Positions 2,389 to 63,973 of a DNA stretch of 64,000 bases are shown piece by piece. The stretch is from positions 44,064-108,063 of the IMG/VR virus record IMGVR_UViG_3300041956_000050, one strand, 5' to 3'. Both the position numbers and the translations under genes were made by a program. Position 1 is the stretch's first letter. The number at the start of each line of letters is the position of its first letter. The stretch comes from a virus. The notes under the pieces were generated by a model that made no database searches, had not been told where the DNA came from, and saw nothing but the letters and a program-made list of their open reading frames with translations.

Positions 2389-4150
2389 CGATGAGCTTCA
2401 CGCCTGGATCAAGAAGAACATCGGTGTTGACATCCCTCGTGAGCCGGTCTGTGAAGATCACGTAGCACCCTTTCAGTTCCTGGCAGATCTCTTCTTCGAG
2501 CGCGTGCCCTCGGCGCTTGCGCTGGCGAATCGTGGTGGCTCCAAGACTTTCATCGTCGCGCTGCTCCACTACCTCAACTGCACGTACAAGGCCGGATGCG
2601 GCTGCCTGACCTTCGGGGCGACGGAGGCTCAGGGCAATCGCTGTTATGGCAATATTGAGGACTGGTGCTACGTCCACGACGAAGATACTGGCAGGCGTAC
2701 TGACACAGTTCTGCCGTTCATCAGGGAAAAGCCGAAGAAGTCACAGACGGTGTGGAAGACCGGCTCGGTGGTCGAGGTCGTGGCCGGGTCTGAGAATGCC
2801 GTCTCTGGCCCGCACCCGGCGAAGGCGCATGCCGACGAGATTGATCAGATGGAACGGCCGGTGTGGAACCAGAGCCGTGGTATGGCCGTCACTAATCGTG
2901 CCACTGGGCCGTTGCCGCTGTGGATGCAGAAGTACGAGGGAATGATCCCGCCGCAGGACATCGCTACGAGCACGCGCAACTCGACCAAGGGGCTGATGCA
3001 GGAGCTTCTGGATGAGATCGAGCAAGATGTCAAGGATGGAAACATCGCACAGTTTGCGCTCTACACGTGGTGCATTTGGGAGACGATCAAGGAAGTCCCG
3101 AACTGCCGCTGTGTTGACAAGCGCCTGCGGCGGAAGCGCCTCAAGCAACTCGACATGGATGTTGACTCCCTCTGCGAGTGCAACCGCGTTGTGAAGGGCC
3201 GTTTGCCAAGTGGCAAGCCGAGGACCCTGGAGTCCATCTGTAAGGGCAAGGCGTTCCGCTCGCGCGGCTGGAAGCCGTATGTAGATCTCGTGATGACGTT
3301 CAAGCGCAACACTCCTGGCACGTGGACGTTGCAGCATGAGTGCCGCCACGGCATTGACGAGAACAACTACATCCAAGACTGGTCGCTGAACCTGTACGGC
3401 ATCCGCCACTACGAGCCGCATCCGATGTACGGGCCGATCTACCGGGGCGTTGACTGGGGATCGACGCACCCGGCCTGTGTGCTCTACTTCCAGTACCTGA
3501 CAGCAGAGGTGCCAGCACTCGGGTTCGACTACGAGCCGATCTGGCTGGAGTCCGGGATCTATGTGCTGTTCCACGAGATCTACATCGCGGGCAGCGACAG
3601 CCAGACGCTCGCCAAGCGTGTCGTCATGGTTGACGAGCAGTACCGCAAGGAGTACGGCGGCGCTTGGAAGGTCAAGGCTACGTTCTGTGACCCGCAGGGA
3701 GCCGGTGACCGGATCATCTTCAACAATCACGGCATCCCTTCCATCTGGCCCGTCAAGACGCGCAACAAGATCCGCTTCATCGAGACAGTGCAGAACCTCG
3801 TCATTGATGACAAGTTCGCCGTCGATGTCGATGCCGCTCCGATGTTCTGCGAAGAGGTCGAGGGCTGGCAGAAGGACCCACGTACTGGCAAGGAGCTTGA
3901 CAAGTACAACCACGCGATGGCGGCATGGCGCTACGGCATCTCCAACGCCGAAGTGATCGAGAGCCACCGCAGCCAGAAGAAGAACAAGGCAGTCCAGTCC
4001 AATGGCGCACAGCCTCAGCGGCAGGCAGTAGTGAGCCGTCGCACACCGATGGCGGCTGAAGCTGGCGAGATCGTCTACGGTTCGATAGCATCGCGCGGAG
4101 GTTCGGCAGTTCCGCTCGACCCGCGCTTCACCCTCAACGTGGACAAGTGA
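2276..4150 (+). CDS. terL: terminase large subunit (packaging ATPase/nuclease)
   Basis: About 624 aa from ATG 2276; a GTG at 2240 is an alternative start, and neither has a good ribosome site. The ATPase domain shows a TerL-style Walker A, ANRGGSKT (residues 84-91), and a Walker B-like AHADEID. The C-terminal RNase H-like nuclease shows YRGVDWGSTHPACVL, a central CDPQGAGDR and a final KYNHAMAAWRYG acidic segment. It translocates DNA into the prohead and cuts the concatemer. The stop overlaps the GTG preceding the portal ATG, so coupling is likely. Confidence 0.92.
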   Translation: MGITPETLDQLEPSDLRDIVSRVKTLSRRLQYEGPSNDDELHAWIKKNIGVDIPREPVCEDHVAPFQFLADLFFERVPSALALANRGGSKTFIVALLHYLNCTYKAGCGCLTFGATEAQGNRCYGNIEDWCYVHDEDTGRRTDTVLPFIREKPKKSQTVWKTGSVVEVVAGSENAVSGPHPAKAHADEIDQMERPVWNQSRGMAVTNRATGPLPLWMQKYEGMIPPQDIATSTRNSTKGLMQELLDEIEQDVKDGNIAQFALYTWCIWETIKEVPNCRCVDKRLRRKRLKQLDMDVDSLCECNRVVKGRLPSGKPRTLESICKGKAFRSRGWKPYVDLVMTFKRNTPGTWTLQHECRHGIDENNYIQDWSLNLYGIRHYEPHPMYGPIYRGVDWGSTHPACVLYFQYLTAEVPALGFDYEPIWLESGIYVLFHEIYIAGSDSQTLAKRVVMVDEQYRKEYGGAWKVKATFCDPQGAGDRIIFNNHGIPSIWPVKTRNKIRFIETVQNLVIDDKFAVDVDAAPMFCEEVEGWQKDPRTGKELDKYNHAMAAWRYGISNAEVIESHRSQKKNKAVQSNGAQPQRQAVVSRRTPMAAEAGEIVYGSIASRGGSAVPLDPRFTLNVDK

Positions 4151-4152
4151 AC

Positions 4153-6798
4153 ATGGCTGATGTGAATGTCAAGATAGATGAGGGCGGCGTCGAAGAGGAA
4201 GACGTTGCCAAGATCGAGAAGTCCGTCAAGGGTCTTGACCAGGCCCCGACGACTGCTCAGCAGACACCGACTCAGGATCAGTGGACGGCGTTCAGTACAG
4301 CGCTCGGCCCACCGTTCGACTCTGAGCGCGTCACGCTGTATCAGATGCGGCAGATGCGCAAGGATGCGATGATCGCCTTCGGCCTGCACTACATCAAGGT
4401 GCCATTGGTAAGGGCAGAATGGCACATCGAGGCGCGCGACAAGGACGGCCCGAACGCACAAGTTGCCGCGTTTGTTGACGCCGCGCTGCGTCCGATCTAC
4501 GCCAGGTACATGTTCCAGCGGATGCTCGCGCTCGACTTCGGCTTCCAGGCGATGACGAAGCGCTTCATCATGAAGAACCCCGGAGGGATCTATAGCGATC
4601 CCACAGAGGCCGACGAGACGCGCCAGATCAAGCCGATTTGGGACGAGGGCAGCATCGATCCGGTGATCTGGAAGGCTCCTGTCCCGCTGCGCCCCGAACT
4701 TGTCAAGCCTGTTTTCGATGACAAGACTGGTGAGTTCGCCGGGATGACCTACGACGCTCCGCAAGTGCAGCGCCAGTCCACGAAGACGAGCCGTGGCAAG
4801 TCCAAGGGCCTGATGGAGATGGACGTGTACCACAGCCTGTGGGGCACGAACGCCAAGGACGACGAGCACGGCTCGATCTACGGCTTCCCGCGCACCGGCC
4901 ATGCGAGGGACTACTGGTGGGCCTACAAGTTCCTGTTCCAGCTTTCCAACCGTGGCTACGAGCGCGTGGCGATCCCGCCCGTCGTGGCCTACCACCCCGA
5001 AGGCAGCAGCGTCATTGATGACACAACCGGTGAGACGCAGCCGAACTGGCAGATTGCGCTTGAGATGGCAGACCGGCTCCGCAGCAACGCGGTCGCGGCC
5101 GTGCCGTCAACAATGGCGGAAGCCGGACTGGGGGAAGCGTCCAACTCGCAGCGTGCGTGGGACTTCAAGTTCCTAGAGACGCCGTGGCAGTCACTGTCAT
5201 CATTCGATACGCGCTTCAATTACCTGAACGTGATGAAGCTGCGCTCGGTGTGGGTGCCCGAGCAGGCTTTCATCGAGGGCGAGGGCGGCACAAGCTCGCG
5301 CAACGTCGCTTCGCAGATGGCCGAGATCTTCCAAGAGTCGCAGGCACTGTTGATGGAAGAGGCCGACGACGAGATCAATCGCTACATGATCCCGCAGCTT
5401 CTGATCGTCAACTTCCCGGAGTTCATCAACAATGGCGGCATTGCTCGCAAGGTGTCACACGGCTTCCGCAAGGAGGACATCGAGTTCTACAAGCAGGTGC
5501 TCCAGTTGATCGGCCAGAGCACGCCGGAGAAGCTGGCCGACGAGGTGGACGTGACCGAACTGCTGCGCCGGATGGGAGCGCCCCTGCGTGACGCCCGCGT
5601 GCTGGAGCGCGAGCGCCAGAAGCTCCAGGCACAGAGCGCGCTCGGATCGCCGCCTCTTGTCAACGGTGGTTCCGGCAACGTCAGCGTGATCGCCAATCCG
5701 AACGTCAACCCTGGCTTCCAGAATGGCGGCTCGGTTCCGTCACCGCGTGGCGGCGGCGCTGCGTCGGCGGCGGCTGGGTTCGCAGACCCGATGTATCAGC
5801 AGGCCACGATCTACATGCAGCCGCCGCCCCACATGGACGCCTGGCTCGGAGACGCCGACGACTTCATCACGTCGCTACCTGTCAGCAAGCACTACACTGA
5901 CAAGACGATTCGCTCGCTGTCGCTGCAACTGCGGCGTGTGTGGGAGGCCCACTTCCGGCGTCTGTATCCCGACTTCGCCAAGTACGTCAATGGGCTTGAC
6001 ACGCTCGAACTGGCCGATGGCAAGCGCGTGCGCATCACCAAGAAGACGGCTGAGGCAGCGGCGCGCAAGATCATGGACAAGTGGGGCGTGGCCAGCGAGG
6101 AGATGGACAAGCTGGCCAAGCGCTCGGCAGAGATCATCCGCAAGATGGTTGACAGGGGAGCCAAGCTCGATCAGAAGCGGACGCGGATCGATGCCGACCT
6201 TGACGAAGATGACATCGAGAGCTTCGTCGGAGAACAGGTGGGGCGATTGATCCGGCTCACAGATCGCACGTTCAAGGAGGAGATGCGTGGATTCGTCACC
6301 GACGCCATCCGAGATGGCCAAGGCCCTGGCGAGATTGCAGACGGCATTACGGCACATTTCGAGGGCTTTCCGACGACTCGCGCGGATCGTATTGCGCGTA
6401 GCGAGACTCGTGATGCGGTCAACGCTGCCACACTGTTGTCTGGTCAGGCATCCGGTATCCGCTACGTCCGGGCGACGGACGGCGAGGAGTTCGATGAGGA
6501 CTGCAAGAATCGCAATGGGCGGCTATACACCGTTCGCGAGGCTTGGCGTGAGATGCGCAAGGAACACCCCAACGGCACGCTCGGGTTCGATCTCATCCCG
6601 CGAGCGAACTTCTCGGTCGAGTACGTGGCGCAGATGCCTGACGGAGCGCCCGATGACTCCCTTGCCTTCTACGATTCGGACTCAGAGACGGCCTTCGTAG
6701 TCTTCAACAGTGATGGCACTGACCAGTACCTGTCGGAACTGGGCGAGTGGTTGATCCGCGAGGGCAGCAATGGCAACGGGGCGCATGCCAACGTATGA
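4153..6798 (+). CDS. portal protein fused to MuF-like head morphogenesis domain
   Basis: 881 aa, far longer than a typical portal (about 450-550 aa). Residues ~1-480 look like a portal (YQMRQMRKDAMIAFGLHYIK near the start). A low-complexity Gly/Ser/Pro linker (~505-545) follows. The C-terminal ~330 residues resemble the Mu gpF minor head family (ETRDAVNAATLL, then the GRLYTVREAW region). The portal forms the DNA entry ring; MuF domains are usually a separate protein injected or held in the capsid. ATG 4153 was preferred over GTG 4147 for its GGACAAG upstream. Confidence 0.88.
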   Translation: MADVNVKIDEGGVEEEDVAKIEKSVKGLDQAPTTAQQTPTQDQWTAFSTALGPPFDSERVTLYQMRQMRKDAMIAFGLHYIKVPLVRAEWHIEARDKDGPNAQVAAFVDAALRPIYARYMFQRMLALDFGFQAMTKRFIMKNPGGIYSDPTEADETRQIKPIWDEGSIDPVIWKAPVPLRPELVKPVFDDKTGEFAGMTYDAPQVQRQSTKTSRGKSKGLMEMDVYHSLWGTNAKDDEHGSIYGFPRTGHARDYWWAYKFLFQLSNRGYERVAIPPVVAYHPEGSSVIDDTTGETQPNWQIALEMADRLRSNAVAAVPSTMAEAGLGEASNSQRAWDFKFLETPWQSLSSFDTRFNYLNVMKLRSVWVPEQAFIEGEGGTSSRNVASQMAEIFQESQALLMEEADDEINRYMIPQLLIVNFPEFINNGGIARKVSHGFRKEDIEFYKQVLQLIGQSTPEKLADEVDVTELLRRMGAPLRDARVLERERQKLQAQSALGSPPLVNGGSGNVSVIANPNVNPGFQNGGSVPSPRGGGAASAAAGFADPMYQQATIYMQPPPHMDAWLGDADDFITSLPVSKHYTDKTIRSLSLQLRRVWEAHFRRLYPDFAKYVNGLDTLELADGKRVRITKKTAEAAARKIMDKWGVASEEMDKLAKRSAEIIRKMVDRGAKLDQKRTRIDADLDEDDIESFVGEQVGRLIRLTDRTFKEEMRGFVTDAIRDGQGPGEIADGITAHFEGFPTTRADRIARSETRDAVNAATLLSGQASGIRYVRATDGEEFDEDCKNRNGRLYTVREAWREMRKEHPNGTLGFDLIPRANFSVEYVAQMPDGAPDDSLAFYDSDSETAFVVFNSDGTDQYLSELGEWLIREGSNGNGAHANV

Positions 6799-40123: not shown

Positions 40124-40297
40124 TCACACTCCGGAGGAATTGGGGTGGGAGAGGGATGCGCCCATCTGCCAGAAGGCATCGGCGAGCGCGTCATCGCCAC
40201 TGTCAGCGGCAATGTCAGCGGTGTTGAAGCTGACCTCAGCGGCCAGCATTCGTGCGAGGTTCGCGCCAGTACCGACGCGCGGATCGAACAGGAACAT
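40124..40297 (-). CDS. DPxxG[T/S]G-motif micro-protein, 57 aa (member 1)
   Basis: ATG 40297 with AAAGGAG upstream. The N-terminus is MFLFDPRVGTGANLARMLAA, followed by an acidic helical tail. DPRVGTGANL (residues 5-14) is shared, with substitutions, by three other small genes between here and 43.9 kb. The motif resembles motif I of N6-adenine methyltransferases, but 57 residues cannot form that fold. Function unknown. Confidence 0.65.
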   Translation of the reverse strand: MFLFDPRVGTGANLARMLAAEVSFNTADIAADSGDDALADAFWQMGASLSHPNSSGV

Positions 40298-40310
40298 GTG
40301 TCTCCTTTGT

Positions 40311-40472
40311 TTACCAGTCACCGCGCCGGAGAGACTGGCGCGCTGAGCGGCGGTCGTGGCGATTGGCGCGCTTGCCGGACTTGCCGTGCGAGCCACCCTT
40401 GCGGTCGAACGATGCGCGAGCGACGGCAGAGCCGCCAGCCTTGGCATCAGTGACAAGCTTGTTACGCTTCAT
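40311..40472 (-). CDS. basic micro-protein, 53 aa
   Basis: ATG 40472 behind GGAGGAAT. Lys/Arg/Gly/Ser-rich with several His (KGGSHGKSGKRANRHDRRSA). Possibly binds nucleic acid. Unknown. Confidence 0.6.
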   Translation of the reverse strand: MKRNKLVTDAKAGGSAVARASFDRKGGSHGKSGKRANRHDRRSARQSLRRGDW

Positions 40473-40481
40473 GATTCCTCC

Positions 40482-41027
40482 TTACCAGGGACAGGCAACG
40501 TCGTCGCGGTGGAGGGCACCGCAGCCCTTACAGTCGATCAGGCGACTGTCATCCGTCTTGCACTCGCCGTTGGCACGGCGCTCCCGAGCGCGAGCGATCC
40601 CATCGTGGATCGTGTGCTTGTGCTTGGGCTTTTCTGACACAGTGGGGAGCGGCTGCTGCGGGTTCGGCTCCAGCGGAGACTCGACCTCCTCGCCCTCCTC
40701 GACCTGGCTATGCCAGTAGTGATGGCAGCGCCGACGGTCATCGTCGGTCTGCTGGCCGGTGCCACGGCAGGCATAGCACGGCCCGGTCTTGCCGGTGTAC
40801 TTACCGTTGACAACCGCGCCGCCCATATAGAACAGCCCGGAGCCAAGGCACTTGAAGCACTTCTCCTCACCGGCCACTTCGACGGTGAACCAGTCCACCG
40901 GATACCACTCGGCGCGATCCTTGCCGTAGCGGTAGATGTTGGCCCGCGTTCCGTCCTTACGGACGGCCAGCACGATGCCGCTGTCGCCATCGCGGACGTT
41001 CTTGACGATGTTTCCCTTGACCATCAT
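40482..41027 (-). CDS. protein with DnaJ-type zinc hairpin, 181 aa
   Basis: AAAGGAGAC precedes ATG ATG. SH3/KOW-like N-terminus (MVKGNIVKNVRDGDSGIVLA), then CFKCLGSG and CYACRGTG (about residues 57-91), a DnaJ-type CxxCxGxG pair. A basic middle and a C-terminal CKGCGALH follow. Zinc-stabilised nucleic-acid- or protein-binding module; role unknown. Preceded by a 20-bp RNA hairpin. Confidence 0.65.
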   Translation of the reverse strand: MMVKGNIVKNVRDGDSGIVLAVRKDGTRANIYRYGKDRAEWYPVDWFTVEVAGEEKCFKCLGSGLFYMGGAVVNGKYTGKTGPCYACRGTGQQTDDDRRRCHHYWHSQVEEGEEVESPLEPNPQQPLPTVSEKPKHKHTIHDGIARARERRANGECKTDDSRLIDCKGCGALHRDDVACPW

Positions 41028-41053
41028 GTCTCCTTTGTTGACACAGTGAGGAT

Positions 41054-41106
41054 GGCTGCTGGACGCCGGAAGTACACACACCAGAGACTCCCGACGCCCA
41101 GCAGCC
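41054..41106 (-). promoter_or_regulatory. 20-bp leader hairpin with UGUGUGU loop
   Basis: In leftward RNA, the 20 bases from 41106 to 41087 pair fully with those from 41073 to 41054, including three G-U pairs, around a 13-base loop. The G-U pairs would be A-C mismatches in rightward RNA, so the structure belongs to the leftward transcript. It lies between the secreted collagen-like gene and the zinc-hairpin gene. Terminator or translational control element; no T-run follows. Confidence 0.65.
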
Positions 41107-41139
41107 ACCCACTCTGTGAGTGAGTGACTGTTGACTGTT

Positions 41140-41861: not shown

Positions 41862-42167
41862 CTAGAGCGCCTTGACGGTGACGCGGATCTTCTGCGGCTT
41901 GCCGAGCGCCGCATCCTGCTCCTGCGAGAGATAGACCGGCGAGGAGCCGTTGTCGCTGATCTCCTCGAAGCGGACACCGCCGCCCGACTGCGGCTCGTGC
42001 GGCTTGATCTCGCGGGTCGTGCGGTCGCGCTTGCCGCGCTGCATCGTGATCGTCACGCTGTCCTGCTCGCGCTTGGGGGTGCGCGTGCGGGTGGCAGCGG
42101 GCTTCACCGTCGTCGTGTTCTTCTTGACGGTGGACTTGCGGGTACGACGGGTGGCGGTGGTCGCCAT
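41862..42167 (-). CDS. basic-tailed hypothetical protein, 101 aa
   Basis: ATG 42167 with AGGAGGATC upstream. N-terminal 35 residues are Lys/Arg/Thr-rich; the rest is beta-rich (SVTITMQRGKRDRTTREI, then QKIRVTVKAL at the end). Probably nucleic-acid binding. Its leader contains the structured RNA described separately. Confidence 0.6.
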   Translation of the reverse strand: MATTATRRTRKSTVKKNTTTVKPAATRTRTPKREQDSVTITMQRGKRDRTTREIKPHEPQSGGGVRFEEISDNGSSPVYLSQEQDAALGKPQKIRVTVKAL

Positions 42168-42192: not shown

Positions 42193-42306
42193 GTGGCAGT
42201 CACTATGACTGGCACATACTGTGTACCGACAACCCTTGCGGTCGTCAGCGCGAGCACACACTCGCGAAGCCGCCAGTGTTGGCGGACTTTCGGCTGTTTT
42301 CAGCCG
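42193..42306 (-). ncRNA. structured leader RNA, copy A
   Basis: In leftward orientation the hairpins are: CGGCTG-AAAA-CAGCCG (42306-42291), CCGCCA-ACAC-TGGCGG (42285-42270), CGCGAG-TGTGTG-CTCGCG (42266-42249), then CTGACGACC, and a 10-position palindrome with one mismatch (42215-42193). The first and third hairpins and the CTGAYGACC tail recur in copy B with different stem bases but the same loops. The first hairpin includes the stop codon of the upstream gene. Probable cis-regulatory RNA for the basic-tailed gene. Confidence 0.6.
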
Positions 42307-42488
42307 TTGTCGGTATTGACAACGATCACCCAGTTGGCATCGGGGTGCATTCCCCAGCGCGCCATGAACAGCGCGGCCGACAGCGTGCCGTCGTCATACT
42401 TGTTCATGTCAAGCCCGACCTCCAGTGCCTCGTCAACGGAGTTGACAGTAAGCTCGGGCCAGTCGGACGAATATATGACACTTGTCAT
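42300..42488 (-). CDS. hypothetical protein, 62 aa
   Basis: Strand-helix-strand (MTSVIYSSDWPELTVNSVDE, ANWVIVVNTDNG). Ribosome site AAAGGAG. Its stop lies in hairpin 1 of leader copy A. Confidence 0.6.
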   Translation of the reverse strand: MTSVIYSSDWPELTVNSVDEALEVGLDMNKYDDGTLSAALFMARWGMHPDANWVIVVNTDNG

Positions 42489-42510
42489 ATGTGCTCCTTT
42501 GCAGGGGTTT

Positions 42511-42783
42511 TCAGTTGCAGCAGACGGGACCGTGATCAGTCTCGATCACGTCCGGCCACCAGCTAGGCCGCACGCGGATACCGCAGCGCTCGCGCCCGCC
42601 GATCTTGCCCGAGGGCATTACCGCGCAGCCGATGATGTCAATTTCGACATCATTCATGTCCGCGAAATGCTCCGCATCGCGCTCGATGACATCGTACATG
42701 TCATCATGCACCCTGTAATAGCGGCGAGCGATGAAGCGGCCAGTGGCGAAGTCGGTGAACTCGAACGGGAATGTGTTACGCAT
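42511..42783 (-). CDS. hypothetical protein, 90 aa
   Basis: Starts MRNTFPFEFTDFATGRFIAR; later VEIDIIGCAVMPSGKIGG; ends in CCN. Good ribosome site AAAGGAG and a TAGTAT box upstream. Unknown. Confidence 0.6.
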   Translation of the reverse strand: MRNTFPFEFTDFATGRFIARRYYRVHDDMYDVIERDAEHFADMNDVEIDIIGCAVMPSGKIGGRERCGIRVRPSWWPDVIETDHGPVCCN

Positions 42784-42808
42784 AATGACATGCTCCTTTC
42801 AGGGTTTG

Positions 42809-42814
42809 ATACTA
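42809..42814 (-). promoter_or_regulatory. -10 box TAGTAT
   Basis: CGC precedes TAGTATCAAAC on the leftward strand, coinciding with the stop codon of the upstream gene and about 25 bases before ATG 42783. Confidence 0.5.
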
Positions 42815-43057
42815 GCGCCAGCTACTGCGGCGACGCTGATTGTCAGCGAACCACGCCTCGTAATGGCGCTCGGACAGTGACAGCGGCACGACATTCGCGC
42901 CCGAGCCGATGGCCGGATCGACCATCAGCGTCTCTGCCGCCATTACTGACAGCGGCGGCTGCTTGGGTGTGCGCTTGCGAGCCGGACGCTTACGCGGCGG
43001 CTCAACGGTGACGACAGCGGTCTGGACAGCCGCAATCGCGGCATCGAAGTCGAACAT
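42812..43057 (-). CDS. DPxxG[T/S]G-motif protein, 81 aa (member 3)
   Basis: N-terminal helix (MFDFDAAIAAVQTAVVTVEP), a basic Pro-rich linker (RKRPARKRTPKQP), then VDPAIGSGANVVPLS with the shared motif at residues 47-56, and a Trp/Arg-rich tail. It differs from the other members in having the motif in the middle. Function unknown. Confidence 0.6.
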   Translation of the reverse strand: MFDFDAAIAAVQTAVVTVEPPRKRPARKRTPKQPPLSVMAAETLMVDPAIGSGANVVPLSLSERHYEAWFADNQRRRSSWR

Positions 43058-43058
43058 G

Positions 43059-43277
43059 TCAGCATCCCTCCGGACGCGAGTAGGTGACAAAGCCATCGGC
43101 CTGGACGTGAGCGTCAAGCCAACGGCACCCAACGGGGCGCGTGAGAATGGCGTCACCGTTGACGGTATCGTCAGCGATGTGCTGCCAGTCGTCGCCCATA
43201 AGGGCGATACGCGCCTTCTGCGCATCGGTGAGCGGATTCATGTCACGGAACGCTTCCCGTAGGGCCATGTCACGCAT
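43059..43277 (-). CDS. hypothetical protein, 72 aa
   Basis: ATG 43277 behind AAAGG. Helical start (RDMALREAFRDMNPLTDAQK), then strands and a C-terminal GC. Just downstream of a TAGGAT box. Unknown. Confidence 0.6.
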   Translation of the reverse strand: MRDMALREAFRDMNPLTDAQKARIALMGDDWQHIADDTVNGDAILTRPVGCRWLDAHVQADGFVTYSRPEGC

Positions 43278-43300
43278 ATTGTTCACCCTTTCCTTGTTTG

Positions 43301-43306
43301 ATCCTA
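43301..43306 (-). promoter_or_regulatory. extended -10 box TAGGAT
   Basis: GGG precedes TAGGATCAAAC on the leftward strand, about 23 bases before ATG 43277 and just past the preceding stop codon. Confidence 0.55.
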
Positions 43307-43308
43307 CC

Positions 43309-43605
43309 CTACGCCACGTAGGGGTCGTAGTTGTAGAACGTTCCGACCTCACTGTCAGTGATCGGAGCGCACGCCTCAGCGTCCGCCTCCAGTCGCCGGA
43401 GCGTGCGCTCCAGCGCAGCCAGCGCACGGCCGGAGCCAACGCGAGGGTCGGCGGTGCCGGAGAAGACCTCGATCTTCGCACGCTTGGCACCCTGAGCCTG
43501 CGACTCTCCGAGCCAGACCTGACGCCCATTGGGCAGGATCGCGGCGATCACCGTGGTGCCGACATTCGTCGGAATGGCAACCGTATCGAGCGTAGTGGTG
43601 AGCAT
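43309..43605 (-). CDS. DPxxG[T/S]G-motif protein, 98 aa (member 4)
   Basis: A ~50-residue beta-rich domain (VGTTVIAAILPNGRQVWLGE, AKRAKIEVFSG) then ADPRVGSGRALAALERTLRR with the shared motif at residues 53-62 leading into a helix. Here the motif is C-terminal to an independent domain, suggesting a portable module. Preceded by structured leader copy B. Confidence 0.6.
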   Translation of the reverse strand: MLTTTLDTVAIPTNVGTTVIAAILPNGRQVWLGESQAQGAKRAKIEVFSGTADPRVGSGRALAALERTLRRLEADAEACAPITDSEVGTFYNYDPYVA

Positions 43606-43638
43606 TACTGTTTACTCCTTACTGGAAGTGTCTGATCC

Positions 43639-43737
43639 CCCGTAGGGTCATCAGCGAGGGCACACACCCTCGAACGCCCGTAGGCGTTTCGGCCGTTTTC
43701 GGCCGATCAGTCACTACTGTTTCACCCCTATGGGGTG
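43639..43737 (-). ncRNA. structured leader RNA, copy B
   Basis: In leftward orientation the hairpins are: CACCCC-ATA-GGGGTG (43737-43723), TCGGCCG-AAAA-CGGCCGA (43706-43689), ACGCC-TACG-GGCGT (43687-43674), CGAGGG-TGTGTG-CCCTCG (43672-43655), then CTGATGACC running into CCC-TAC-GGG (43647-43639). The AAAA-loop and TGTGTG-loop hairpins and CTGAYGACC correspond to copy A with compensatory stem changes. Lies between two DPxxG[T/S]G genes. Confidence 0.6.
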
Positions 43738-43749
43738 GCCGGAATTGGC

Positions 43750-43929
43750 TCAGCCGCAGACCGAGCTACGCTGCCCGAAACCGAGCGCACGCATATCGCG
43801 AAGCCGGATGGAATCCTCACGCTCACGCTCATCGGCGAGATACTGCTCACGGACCCAGGTGAAGTCCTGCGAAGCGGACGCGACGAGGTTGGAACCGGTG
43901 CCCTCGGAGGGATCGAAAATACGCTGCAT
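43750..43929 (-). CDS. DPxxG[T/S]G-motif micro-protein, 59 aa (member 2)
   Basis: ATG 43929 with GAAAGG upstream. N-terminus MQRIFDPSEGTGSNLVASAS, motif at residues 6-15 exactly as in the 57-aa member at 40.1 kb, followed by a charged helix (REQYLADEREREDSIRLR). Function unknown. Its long leader carries a palindrome and a large inverted repeat. Confidence 0.65.
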   Translation of the reverse strand: MQRIFDPSEGTGSNLVASASQDFTWVREQYLADEREREDSIRLRDMRALGFGQRSSVCG

Positions 43930-62737: not shown

Positions 62738-63439
62738 ATGGGTTACAAGGTTCTCGTTGACGAGGTGACCGTTCACGTCACGATCAACAAGCTGCCCCAG
62801 CCGGACGGCTCGGTGATCTACCAGAACGGCCTCGGCCAGACGTACTACCGCGATGAGGTCGTCCCTGACGACAAGATCGCGGAGGACTGGAAGGAAGCGC
62901 TGGATTCGGGCGAAGGCCCGTTGGCCGAAGCGCTCAGCAAGAAGCTGGAGAAGTCCGATGACACCGGTGGTGACACCGGCAAGCGTCTCGGCGCTCCGTT
63001 CGCGGGCTACGAAGACATGGAAGAGGATGACATCCTCGCTGCCATGAAGGCGTTGCCCTCGGCCGCGATCCAGCGGATCAAGGAGTTCGAGGAGCAGCAG
63101 GACGAACCGCGCGAGCGGATCACCAGCTACAACGTCGGCTACGGGGAGTCCGCAGTGGATCGTCAGGCAGGACTGGTGTCATCTGACGTTCAGGACTCCG
63201 ATCCGGACAAGGCGTCGGCCCGAATCAGCACCCGCGAGGTGCCGGAGGAAGGGCCGGTCGTGCCCGGTGAGGGGATCACTGGGACGGGTGACCCGCAGGT
63301 TCCCTACGGCTCGCGTGCCGACGAGGAGAAGGGCGACATCAAGGGCAGCGGCAGCCCGCGCCGCCGTGGCCGTCGCGACCGGCAGCCCAAGCCCCAGGAG
63401 GGCGGGGCCGCTCCGTCTCTGGACAAGGCCAACGAGTAA
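62738..63439 (+). CDS. capsid-associated protein, 233 aa
   Basis: ATG with GGGAGGTGAC upstream. Ordered N-terminus (KVLVDEVTVHVTINKLPQPD), helical middle (DDILAAMKALPSAAIQRIKE), long acidic and Arg-rich disordered tail. Sits between capsid and connector genes; probably a minor head protein. Confidence 0.6.
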   Translation: MGYKVLVDEVTVHVTINKLPQPDGSVIYQNGLGQTYYRDEVVPDDKIAEDWKEALDSGEGPLAEALSKKLEKSDDTGGDTGKRLGAPFAGYEDMEEDDILAAMKALPSAAIQRIKEFEEQQDEPRERITSYNVGYGESAVDRQAGLVSSDVQDSDPDKASARISTREVPEEGPVVPGEGITGTGDPQVPYGSRADEEKGDIKGSGSPRRRGRRDRQPKPQEGGAAPSLDKANE

Positions 63440-63466
63440 GCAGTACTGACGAAAGGAGGGATTCTC

Positions 63467-63973
63467 ATGGCGTTGACAGATCCGATTGCTCTCGCGGCGA
63501 GGGACGAGCTTCCCGAGACGTGGGACAAGCTGTTGGAGACGCCGACGTTCGGTGAGGAAGCCCTCCAACGTCGCCTCGATGTCCTGCTGTACCGAGCGTT
63601 CGGCACTGTCGAGATTGAGCAGGATGATCTTGATCCTGTTCTTGTCAGTTATCTTGGCAAGCGCCTGGCGCTCGACCTGATCATCCCCGGCATCGACTAC
63701 TGGTCGAAGCAGGTGCTCTCGCTCACAGCAGGCGAGCGGGAGACGAAGGCATACAAGGATCGCGCGGAGGACTTGAAGGAACTCCGCAAGATGCTGCTGA
63801 ACGACACAGCGCAGATGGCGGTGGAAGTTGGAGCAGTGCTACCTCAGATCCCACGCCCGCAAGGCAACTTCAGCCGCGTGCTGGAATCGGGATTCTCGAC
63901 AGCACACGTGACATCTGACCCGCTGACGTTCCCGCCGCTGTATGGCCCGCCCGAGGAGACGACGACAGGATGA
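63467..63973 (+). CDS. head-tail connector-like protein, 168 aa
   Basis: AAAGGAGGG precedes the ATG. Helical, with LALDLIIPGIDYWSKQVLSL and ERETKAYKDRAEDLKELRKM, the pattern of gp6/neck-adaptor proteins that follow the capsid gene in siphophages. Assignment mainly from position. Confidence 0.6.
   Translation: MALTDPIALAARDELPETWDKLLETPTFGEEALQRRLDVLLYRAFGTVEIEQDDLDPVLVSYLGKRLALDLIIPGIDYWSKQVLSLTAGERETKAYKDRAEDLKELRKMLLNDTAQMAVEVGAVLPQIPRPQGNFSRVLESGFSTAHVTSDPLTFPPLYGPPEETTTG

Follow-up and report, generated by a model that had tools for sequence, protein, structure and literature searches.

Two paralogous RNAs on the minus strand of an uncultured phage genome share a core that is very probably derived from the hammerhead ribozyme, and in both of them three additional helices form a four-way junction that probably stands in for stem II. 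On the evidence of their sequences, we consider it likely that both are cis-acting, self-cleaving variants of the type II hammerhead, situated between genes of a polycistronic phage mRNA. The hammerhead is among the best studied ribozymes, and stem II is regarded as one of its essential arms. If our reading is correct, a natural hammerhead without stem II offers a measure of the extent to which the fold tolerates rebuilding around its core, and a form of this kind would explain why current models overlook such RNAs. It may also help to show which functions hammerheads serve in the genomes of phages and bacteria.

The window, a stretch of 64,000 nucleotides, belongs to the 108-kb record of an uncultured phage (IMGVR_UViG_3300041956_000050; G000). 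An earlier note had described two leader RNAs here, and reading out the sequence placed both (copies A and B) on the minus strand where that note had located them. They share the order CGGCYG-AAAA-CRGCCG (P2), a second hairpin, CGMGRG-TGTGTG-CYCKCG and CTGAYGACC. The described hairpins were recovered, but the elements are larger than first drawn, as an outer stem (P1) and a short hairpin (P5) also belong to them. What had been taken for a trailing CTGAYGACC is indeed kept in both copies; on re-reading, it is the catalytic strand together with the start of P5. The parts of the two elements in the window are as follows.

42225–42314, minus strand: copy A, whole element, P1-P2-GAAA-stem III-UU-stem I-CUGACGA-P5-P1' (matches to covariance models R1 and R2, and sequence)
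42306–42314, minus strand: A, P1 5' strand ACCGACAAC, pairing flush with 42225–42233; the last codons of the upstream open reading frame (ORF)
42292–42305, minus strand: A, P2 hairpin GGCTG-AAAA-CAGCC, containing the stop codon of the upstream ORF (42300–42302)
42288–42291, minus strand: A, GAAA, comprising G12, A13, A14 and A15.1 (sequence and descriptor)
42268–42288, minus strand: A, hairpin of stem III, with A15.1 (42288) and U16.1 (42268) as its closing pair
42267/42266, minus strand: A, cleavage predicted from hammerhead numbering, directly after H17 (U, 42267) and before the first stem I nucleotide (42266)
42249–42266, minus strand: A, stem I hairpin CGCGAG-TGTGTG-CTCGCG (A/B alignment and descriptor)
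42242–42248, minus strand: A, catalytic strand CTGACGA (sequence and descriptor)
42234–42241, minus strand: A, P5 hairpin CC-GCAA-GG (junction scan)
42225–42233, minus strand: A, P1 3' strand GTTGTCGGT, of which GTCGG could alternatively pair with CTGAC of the core
43632–43710, minus strand: copy B, whole element (covariance model matches and sequence)
43705–43710, minus strand: B, P1 5' strand CTGATC (constrained fold and junction scan)
43691–43704, minus strand: B, P2 hairpin GGCCG-AAAA-CGGCC (junction scan)
43687–43690, minus strand: B, GAAA (descriptor and junction scan)
43674–43687, minus strand: B, stem III hairpin A-CGCC-TACG-GGCG-U (descriptor and constrained fold)
43673/43672, minus strand: B, cleavage predicted directly after H17 (U, 43673) and before 43672
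43655–43672, minus strand: B, stem I hairpin CGAGGG-TGTGTG-CCCTCG (A/B alignment and descriptor)
43648–43654, minus strand: B, catalytic strand CTGATGA (sequence and descriptor)
43638–43647, minus strand: B, P5 hairpin CCC-TACG-GGG (junction scan)
43632–43637, minus strand: B, P1 3' strand GATCAG, of which ATCAG could alternatively pair with CTGAT of the core

Both copies fold far better than their dinucleotide shuffles (z scores of −6.6 for A and −5.9 for B), and none of 200 shuffles was as good in either case. All 22 pairs of the A/B alignment form in both copies and 5 of them are changed on both sides, whereas sliding the partner by 1–3 columns left 29–41% of cells paired. The original structural proposal, that the RNA fold is conserved and that changes in its stems compensate each other, is upheld, and A and B are paralogous structured RNAs. 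Pattern and covariance model searches of the whole 108-kb record detected no third copy; TGTGTG-N6-CTGAYGACC occurs only in A and B even when two mismatches are allowed.

With the major head protein of the record as a query, we obtained 27 related phage contigs. A covariance model (R1) for which A and B were the sole input was run on 626 kb of sequence from these relatives and gave a single strong match, at 28.7 bits (E = 2.4e-4):

99132–99224 of IMGVR_UViG_3300036759_000025 (G005), minus strand: G005 element, R1 match

A search of related phages with such a model had been suggested as a check on the two leaders, and a lack of further homologues had been named as one ground for refuting their shared structure; as homologues exist, this ground falls away. 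In an alignment of A, B and G005 made by hand, helix by helix on the basis of structure, all 72 cells of 24 pairs are standard, and all 16 varying pairs are changed on both sides, which was equalled in none of 5,000 shuffles. Helix I, directly 5' of CUGANGA, has 6 bp, of which 5 show two-sided change in this alignment, and helix III is present with covariation (descriptor and hand-made alignment). MAFFT alignments of the four elements (these three and one described below) were set aside, as they misplaced the stems.

A fourth, looser element was found by a pattern scan of viral contigs followed by a stem descriptor filter. It lies in a 60-kb contig (L098; IMGVR_UViG_3300015360_000004) of a phage that looks unrelated to that of the window, and it scored 24.1 bits (E = 6.6e-4) with a model (R2) trained on A, B and G005 only, and hence without it. 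Its P5 hairpin is inserted directly after CUGAUGA, and the element directly precedes the Shine–Dalgarno sequence and ATG of a 117-amino-acid gene. Strict members with both core and four-way junction number three only (A, B and G005). A scan of viral contigs with the A/B loop pattern gave no match, and protein searches of viral contigs gave no relatives of the genes downstream of A and B. No nucleotide relative was found in cultured phages, in which one later search gave chance-level matches only; R2 had no match in 396 genomes from the phylum of a Mycolicibacterium; and none of the 34 genome-contig pattern matches, all of which were inspected, combines the core with both stem I and stem III. 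Three loci that fit a loose junction (L121, L134 and L141) were rejected, as they apparently represent one coding sequence that is common to Pantoea and Enterobacter.

Other features of these contigs came to light. On the minus strand of G005 (locus L051, approximately 3900–6200), an array of about 2 kb consists of alternating 8-nucleotide repeats GGCTCGCT and GGTGCTCT with variable spacers of about 10 nucleotides and periods of 18 and 36 nucleotides. It adjoins a 316-amino-acid protein with a match to the IS110 Transposase_20 domain (E = 1e-4); another relative (G008, locus L064) has similar motif counts, and the window contains no 8-nucleotide repeat array of this kind. TIGR-Tas systems have dual repeats of 8–12 nucleotides, 9-nucleotide spacers, 36-nucleotide units and an IS110-related Nop domain (PMC12045711). 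The array would fit such a system, although TIGR-Tas arrays usually have 5–15 units and this one has far more. The genes at 62738–63973 of the window recur at the start of the record (G000:C1:111-1325, locus L071) with about 82–86% amino-acid identity, and across these genes contig G001 matches the copy in the window with 100% identity; the repeat reflects either duplication or the assembly of two strains.

The full hammerhead core (GAAA, stem III with A15.1–U16.1, UH, stem I and CUGAYGA) is present in A, B and G005. The strand CUGANGA (C3–A9) reads CUGACGA in A and G005 and CUGAUGA in B and L098; GAAA (G12–A15.1) and the A15.1–U16.1 pair that closes stem III occur in all copies; and H17, directly before stem I, is never G (U in A and B, C in G005 and L098). 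A descriptor of this order (GAAA-stem III-UH-stem I-CUGANGA), run on about 1 Mb of fetched sequence that includes overlapping loci, returned A, B, G005 and two weak matches, and nothing in reversed sequence. In Rfam, G005 weakly matches Hammerhead_II (RF02276), scoring 23.8 bits (E = 0.011) against a cut-off of 37 bits, and A and B yield no hammerhead match even at E ≤ 10. No other Rfam family reaches its gathering score in the elements searched; a match of A to DUF3577 RNA (18.3 bits, E = 2.1) is at chance level. The view that no named RNA family has this order therefore holds as far as Rfam gathering scores go, but the order itself is that of the type II hammerhead. As all core features are present while helix II and a score above the Rfam cut-off are missing, we refer to the elements as hammerhead-like rather than as plain members of RF02276. 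A kink-turn or box C/D reading of CUGAYGA was rejected, given that A has UU in place of the second GA strand and that the bulge falls on the wrong side. In Hammerhead_II, loop I often, though not always, pairs with the tail 3' of stem II. Complementarity between loop I and the 3' tail, matched by eye, spans 6 bp in A, 4 bp in B and 5 bp in L098, and is absent from G005; these matches are short and chance-prone. A loop I–tail pseudoknot may form in A (UGUGUG/UACACA) and L098 (AUAGC/GCUAU) and partially in B, and is not possible in G005.

The elements depart from the hammerhead at stem II. Few pairs in hammerheads are as strongly conserved as 10.1–11.1 (PMC3088659), and insertions between CUGAnGA and its stems never exceed 1–2 nucleotides in published alignments (PMC10085705). 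In A, B and G005, positions 10.1 and 11.1 are unpaired with each other (C/C, C/C and A/C, respectively) and instead pair within P5 and P2. P2 is a 5-bp hairpin with a 4-nucleotide loop, the 3' side of which consists of the nucleotides before GAAA; the 5' side of P5, which has GCAA or UACG loops, consists of those after CUGAYGA; and the outer flanks form P1 (9 bp in A, 6 bp in B and 9 bp in G005). No nucleotide is left unpaired between the helices, so that P1, P2 and P5 meet the tandem G–A pairs of the core in a perfect four-way junction. When 2.1 Mb of fetched sequence was scanned for the core together with a flush junction, these were the only three loci returned; the same scan of 42 Mb of shuffles returned nothing. 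When CUGANGA and GAA are held unpaired, the remainder of each element folds spontaneously into P1, P2, III, I and P5, at 7.2 (A), 1.2 (B) and 2.2 kcal/mol (G005) above the minimum.

Replacement of helix II is plausible because natural hammerheads in which a pseudoknot takes its place exist and are fast (PMC11300833), and because stem II is often only one or two pairs long (PMC3088659). L098, which keeps a short GCC/GGC stem II together with the P5 insertion, appears to be an intermediate between the ordinary and the four-way form. We found no report of a hammerhead with a four-way junction in place of helix II in the literature covered, which mostly excludes subscription journals.

Both copies lie shortly upstream of a small leftward gene, as the ORF positions confirm; the genes around them are as follows.

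41862–42167, minus strand: gene downstream of A, 101 amino acids, basic N terminus, preceded by AGGAGG; no Pfam family
43309–43605, minus strand: gene downstream of B, 98 amino acids, DPRVGSG, preceded by AAGGAG; no Pfam family above cut-off
42300–42488, minus strand: gene upstream of A, 62 amino acids; its 3' end runs into P1 and P2

The 62-amino-acid gene has a relative in G005 (46% identical) that has no ribozyme beside it. Within 42300–42314 (minus strand), termination on this gene and folding of the RNA must interfere: with its stop codon inside P2 and its last codons in the P1 5' strand, a terminating ribosome would melt both helices. We also noted a DPxxG[TS]G motif in four small early proteins that otherwise differ in sequence (DPRVGTGANL, DPAIGSGANV, DPRVGSGRAL and DPSEGTGSNL are its variants); Pfam gave no family above cut-off for the two that were searched.

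40124–40456, 42812–43225, 43309–43605 and 43750–43929, minus strand: DPxxG[TS]G proteins

In the model that we favour, A and B lie between genes of a leftward polycistronic message, and P1 (outer), P2 (before GAAA) and P5 (after CUGAYGA) take the part of a continuous stem II. Active self-cleavage seems likely from the intact core. Points against the model are the missing 10.1–11.1 pair, the large insertions beside the core, the lack of Rfam hammerhead matches for A and B, the better energy of the core-hiding fold in A, the small number of strict members and, in G005, the missing loop I–tail pseudoknot and the lack of a clear gene within about 1 kb downstream. Cleavage would occur 3' of H17. 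The upstream fragment would then finish with the P2 and stem III hairpins, and the downstream mRNA would start directly with a blunt stem I hairpin bearing a 5'-OH, with leaders of 99 (A) and 67 nucleotides (B) to the next start codon. A 5' end capped by a hairpin should resist 5'-end-dependent decay. From these predicted ends, separation of mRNAs and protection of their 5' ends may follow, and segmentation with end protection of a polycistronic early mRNA is the most likely role. As the two copies sit between defined genes, with cut site, neighbouring stop codon and ribosome site all within about 150 nucleotides, a role in mRNA processing or as a switch is directly testable with short transcripts.

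A further pairing could hide the core. In each of the four elements, the five nucleotides directly 3' of P5 (GUCGG in A, AUCAG in B, GUCAG in G005 and AUUAG in L098) offer CUGAY an alternative partner, whereas none of ten ordinary hammerheads has such a pairing beside P5, the same scans giving one off-site, G–U-rich match. In A, B and G005 this partner doubles as the 3' strand of P1, so that only one of the two helices, P1 or the one that hides the core, can form at a time. Nearest-neighbour energies, which leave out core and tertiary contacts, favour the hidden state by 7.2 (A), 1.2 (B), 2.2 (G005) and 0.4 kcal/mol (L098), and the minimum-free-energy folds of A and B hide the core. Fold prediction also extends P5 in the 3' cleavage product of A, B and G005. 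CUGAY might thus pair with the P1 3' strand after cleavage, as a lock, or before it, as an off state. That the elements are regulated switches is a tentative suggestion from these pairings. Equally speculative is a distinct hammerhead class in which a four-way junction replaces helix II and strand exchange switches cleavage or locks the product; coupling to translation is raised by the stop codon of the upstream gene inside P2 of copy A.

The same observations could mean that the elements are hammerhead descendants that no longer cleave, in which the extended P5 with paired CUGAY is the working state and the leader serves as an mRNA stabilizer or RNase barrier. The pairing 3' of P5 in all four variants but not in ordinary hammerheads, the hidden cores of A and B and the loss of a continuous stem II would all suit this explanation. 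We nevertheless regard it as unlikely: the stems of A, B, G005 and L098 have almost wholly diverged but the core is perfect in all four, which points to selection on the core, and the P1/P2/P5 junction is likewise kept. The position of each copy directly upstream of a small gene, and the identical TGTGTG and AAAA loops of A and B, recall the original proposal, here a translational operator with conserved loops as the binding site of a phage protein or a second RNA. This is very improbable, as the hammerhead core is kept in the homologues but the loops are not, G005 has no gene directly downstream and no partner is known. The stem I loop is UGAAGCC in G005 and UCAGAUAGCGACU in L098, so TGTGTG is no general protein-binding signature, and a common loop-binding protein need not be invoked.

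Very stable hairpin arrays between genes might also be intrinsic terminators, attenuators or generic GC-rich hairpins. We give this little credence, because no hairpin is followed by a U-tract, no terminator was called at the A and B sites, and pairwise compensation and core conservation exceed what generic hairpins provide. The long hairpin at about 41.07 kb, in which the earlier note saw the TGTGTG loop recur, shares only GTGTGTG and lacks GAAA and CTGANGA; GTGTGTG occurs eight times in the record, about as expected by chance, so the link is coincidental. That hairpin (window 41040–41110, minus strand; GGCTGCTGGGCGTCGG...CCGGCGTCCAGCAGCC) precedes the gene at 40482–41023 and is no hammerhead. 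Likeness to the hammerhead core could arise by chance, as its motifs are short and 34 loose core matches occur in 17 Mb of shuffles. Yet only 2 of these score as high in their stems as the weakest copy, the junction is absent from all 34, all three homologous copies from two phages carry the core although they were found without using it, and the Rfam match of G005 is independent; chance is hardly credible.

Among known systems, the elements most resemble the type II hammerhead (RF02276; PMC3088659), with which they share the circular order of blocks and the core nucleotides, closed stems I and III with an opening at stem II, and occurrence in phages, often between genes. They differ at stem II. 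In ordinary type II hammerheads, the sequence that follows CUGANGA pairs with the sequence that precedes GAAA; in A, B and G005 it does not, and P1, P2 and P5 form a flush junction instead of a continuous stem II. Our pattern searches also retrieved ordinary type II hammerheads from other phage contigs (L157, L161, L181, L186 (two), L198 (two), L202 and L203), several of them occurring in twos, a few hundred nucleotides apart, and several just before start codons. Their stem II is mostly GCC/GGC; several pass the Rfam cut-off and some fall below it. The L098 element shares with the window copies the core, P5 directly after CUGAUGA, the alternative CUGAU/AUUAG pairing and a place just before a start codon, but it lacks the P2 hairpin and has its short stem II after the P5 insertion, as a three-way junction. 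In the pseudoknot hammerhead (PMC11300833; PDB 8YDC), helix II is likewise replaced while core and mechanism are kept; what takes its place there is a pseudoknot that has a helix IV loop, whereas the form described here, known from sequence, is a nested four-way junction with no obligatory pseudoknot. The non-circularly permuted SGC and CSG hammerheads (PMC10085705) are similarly natural rearrangements around the same core. Unlike them, the present elements retain the classical G-S-C block order of type II, and their novelty lies inside stem II.
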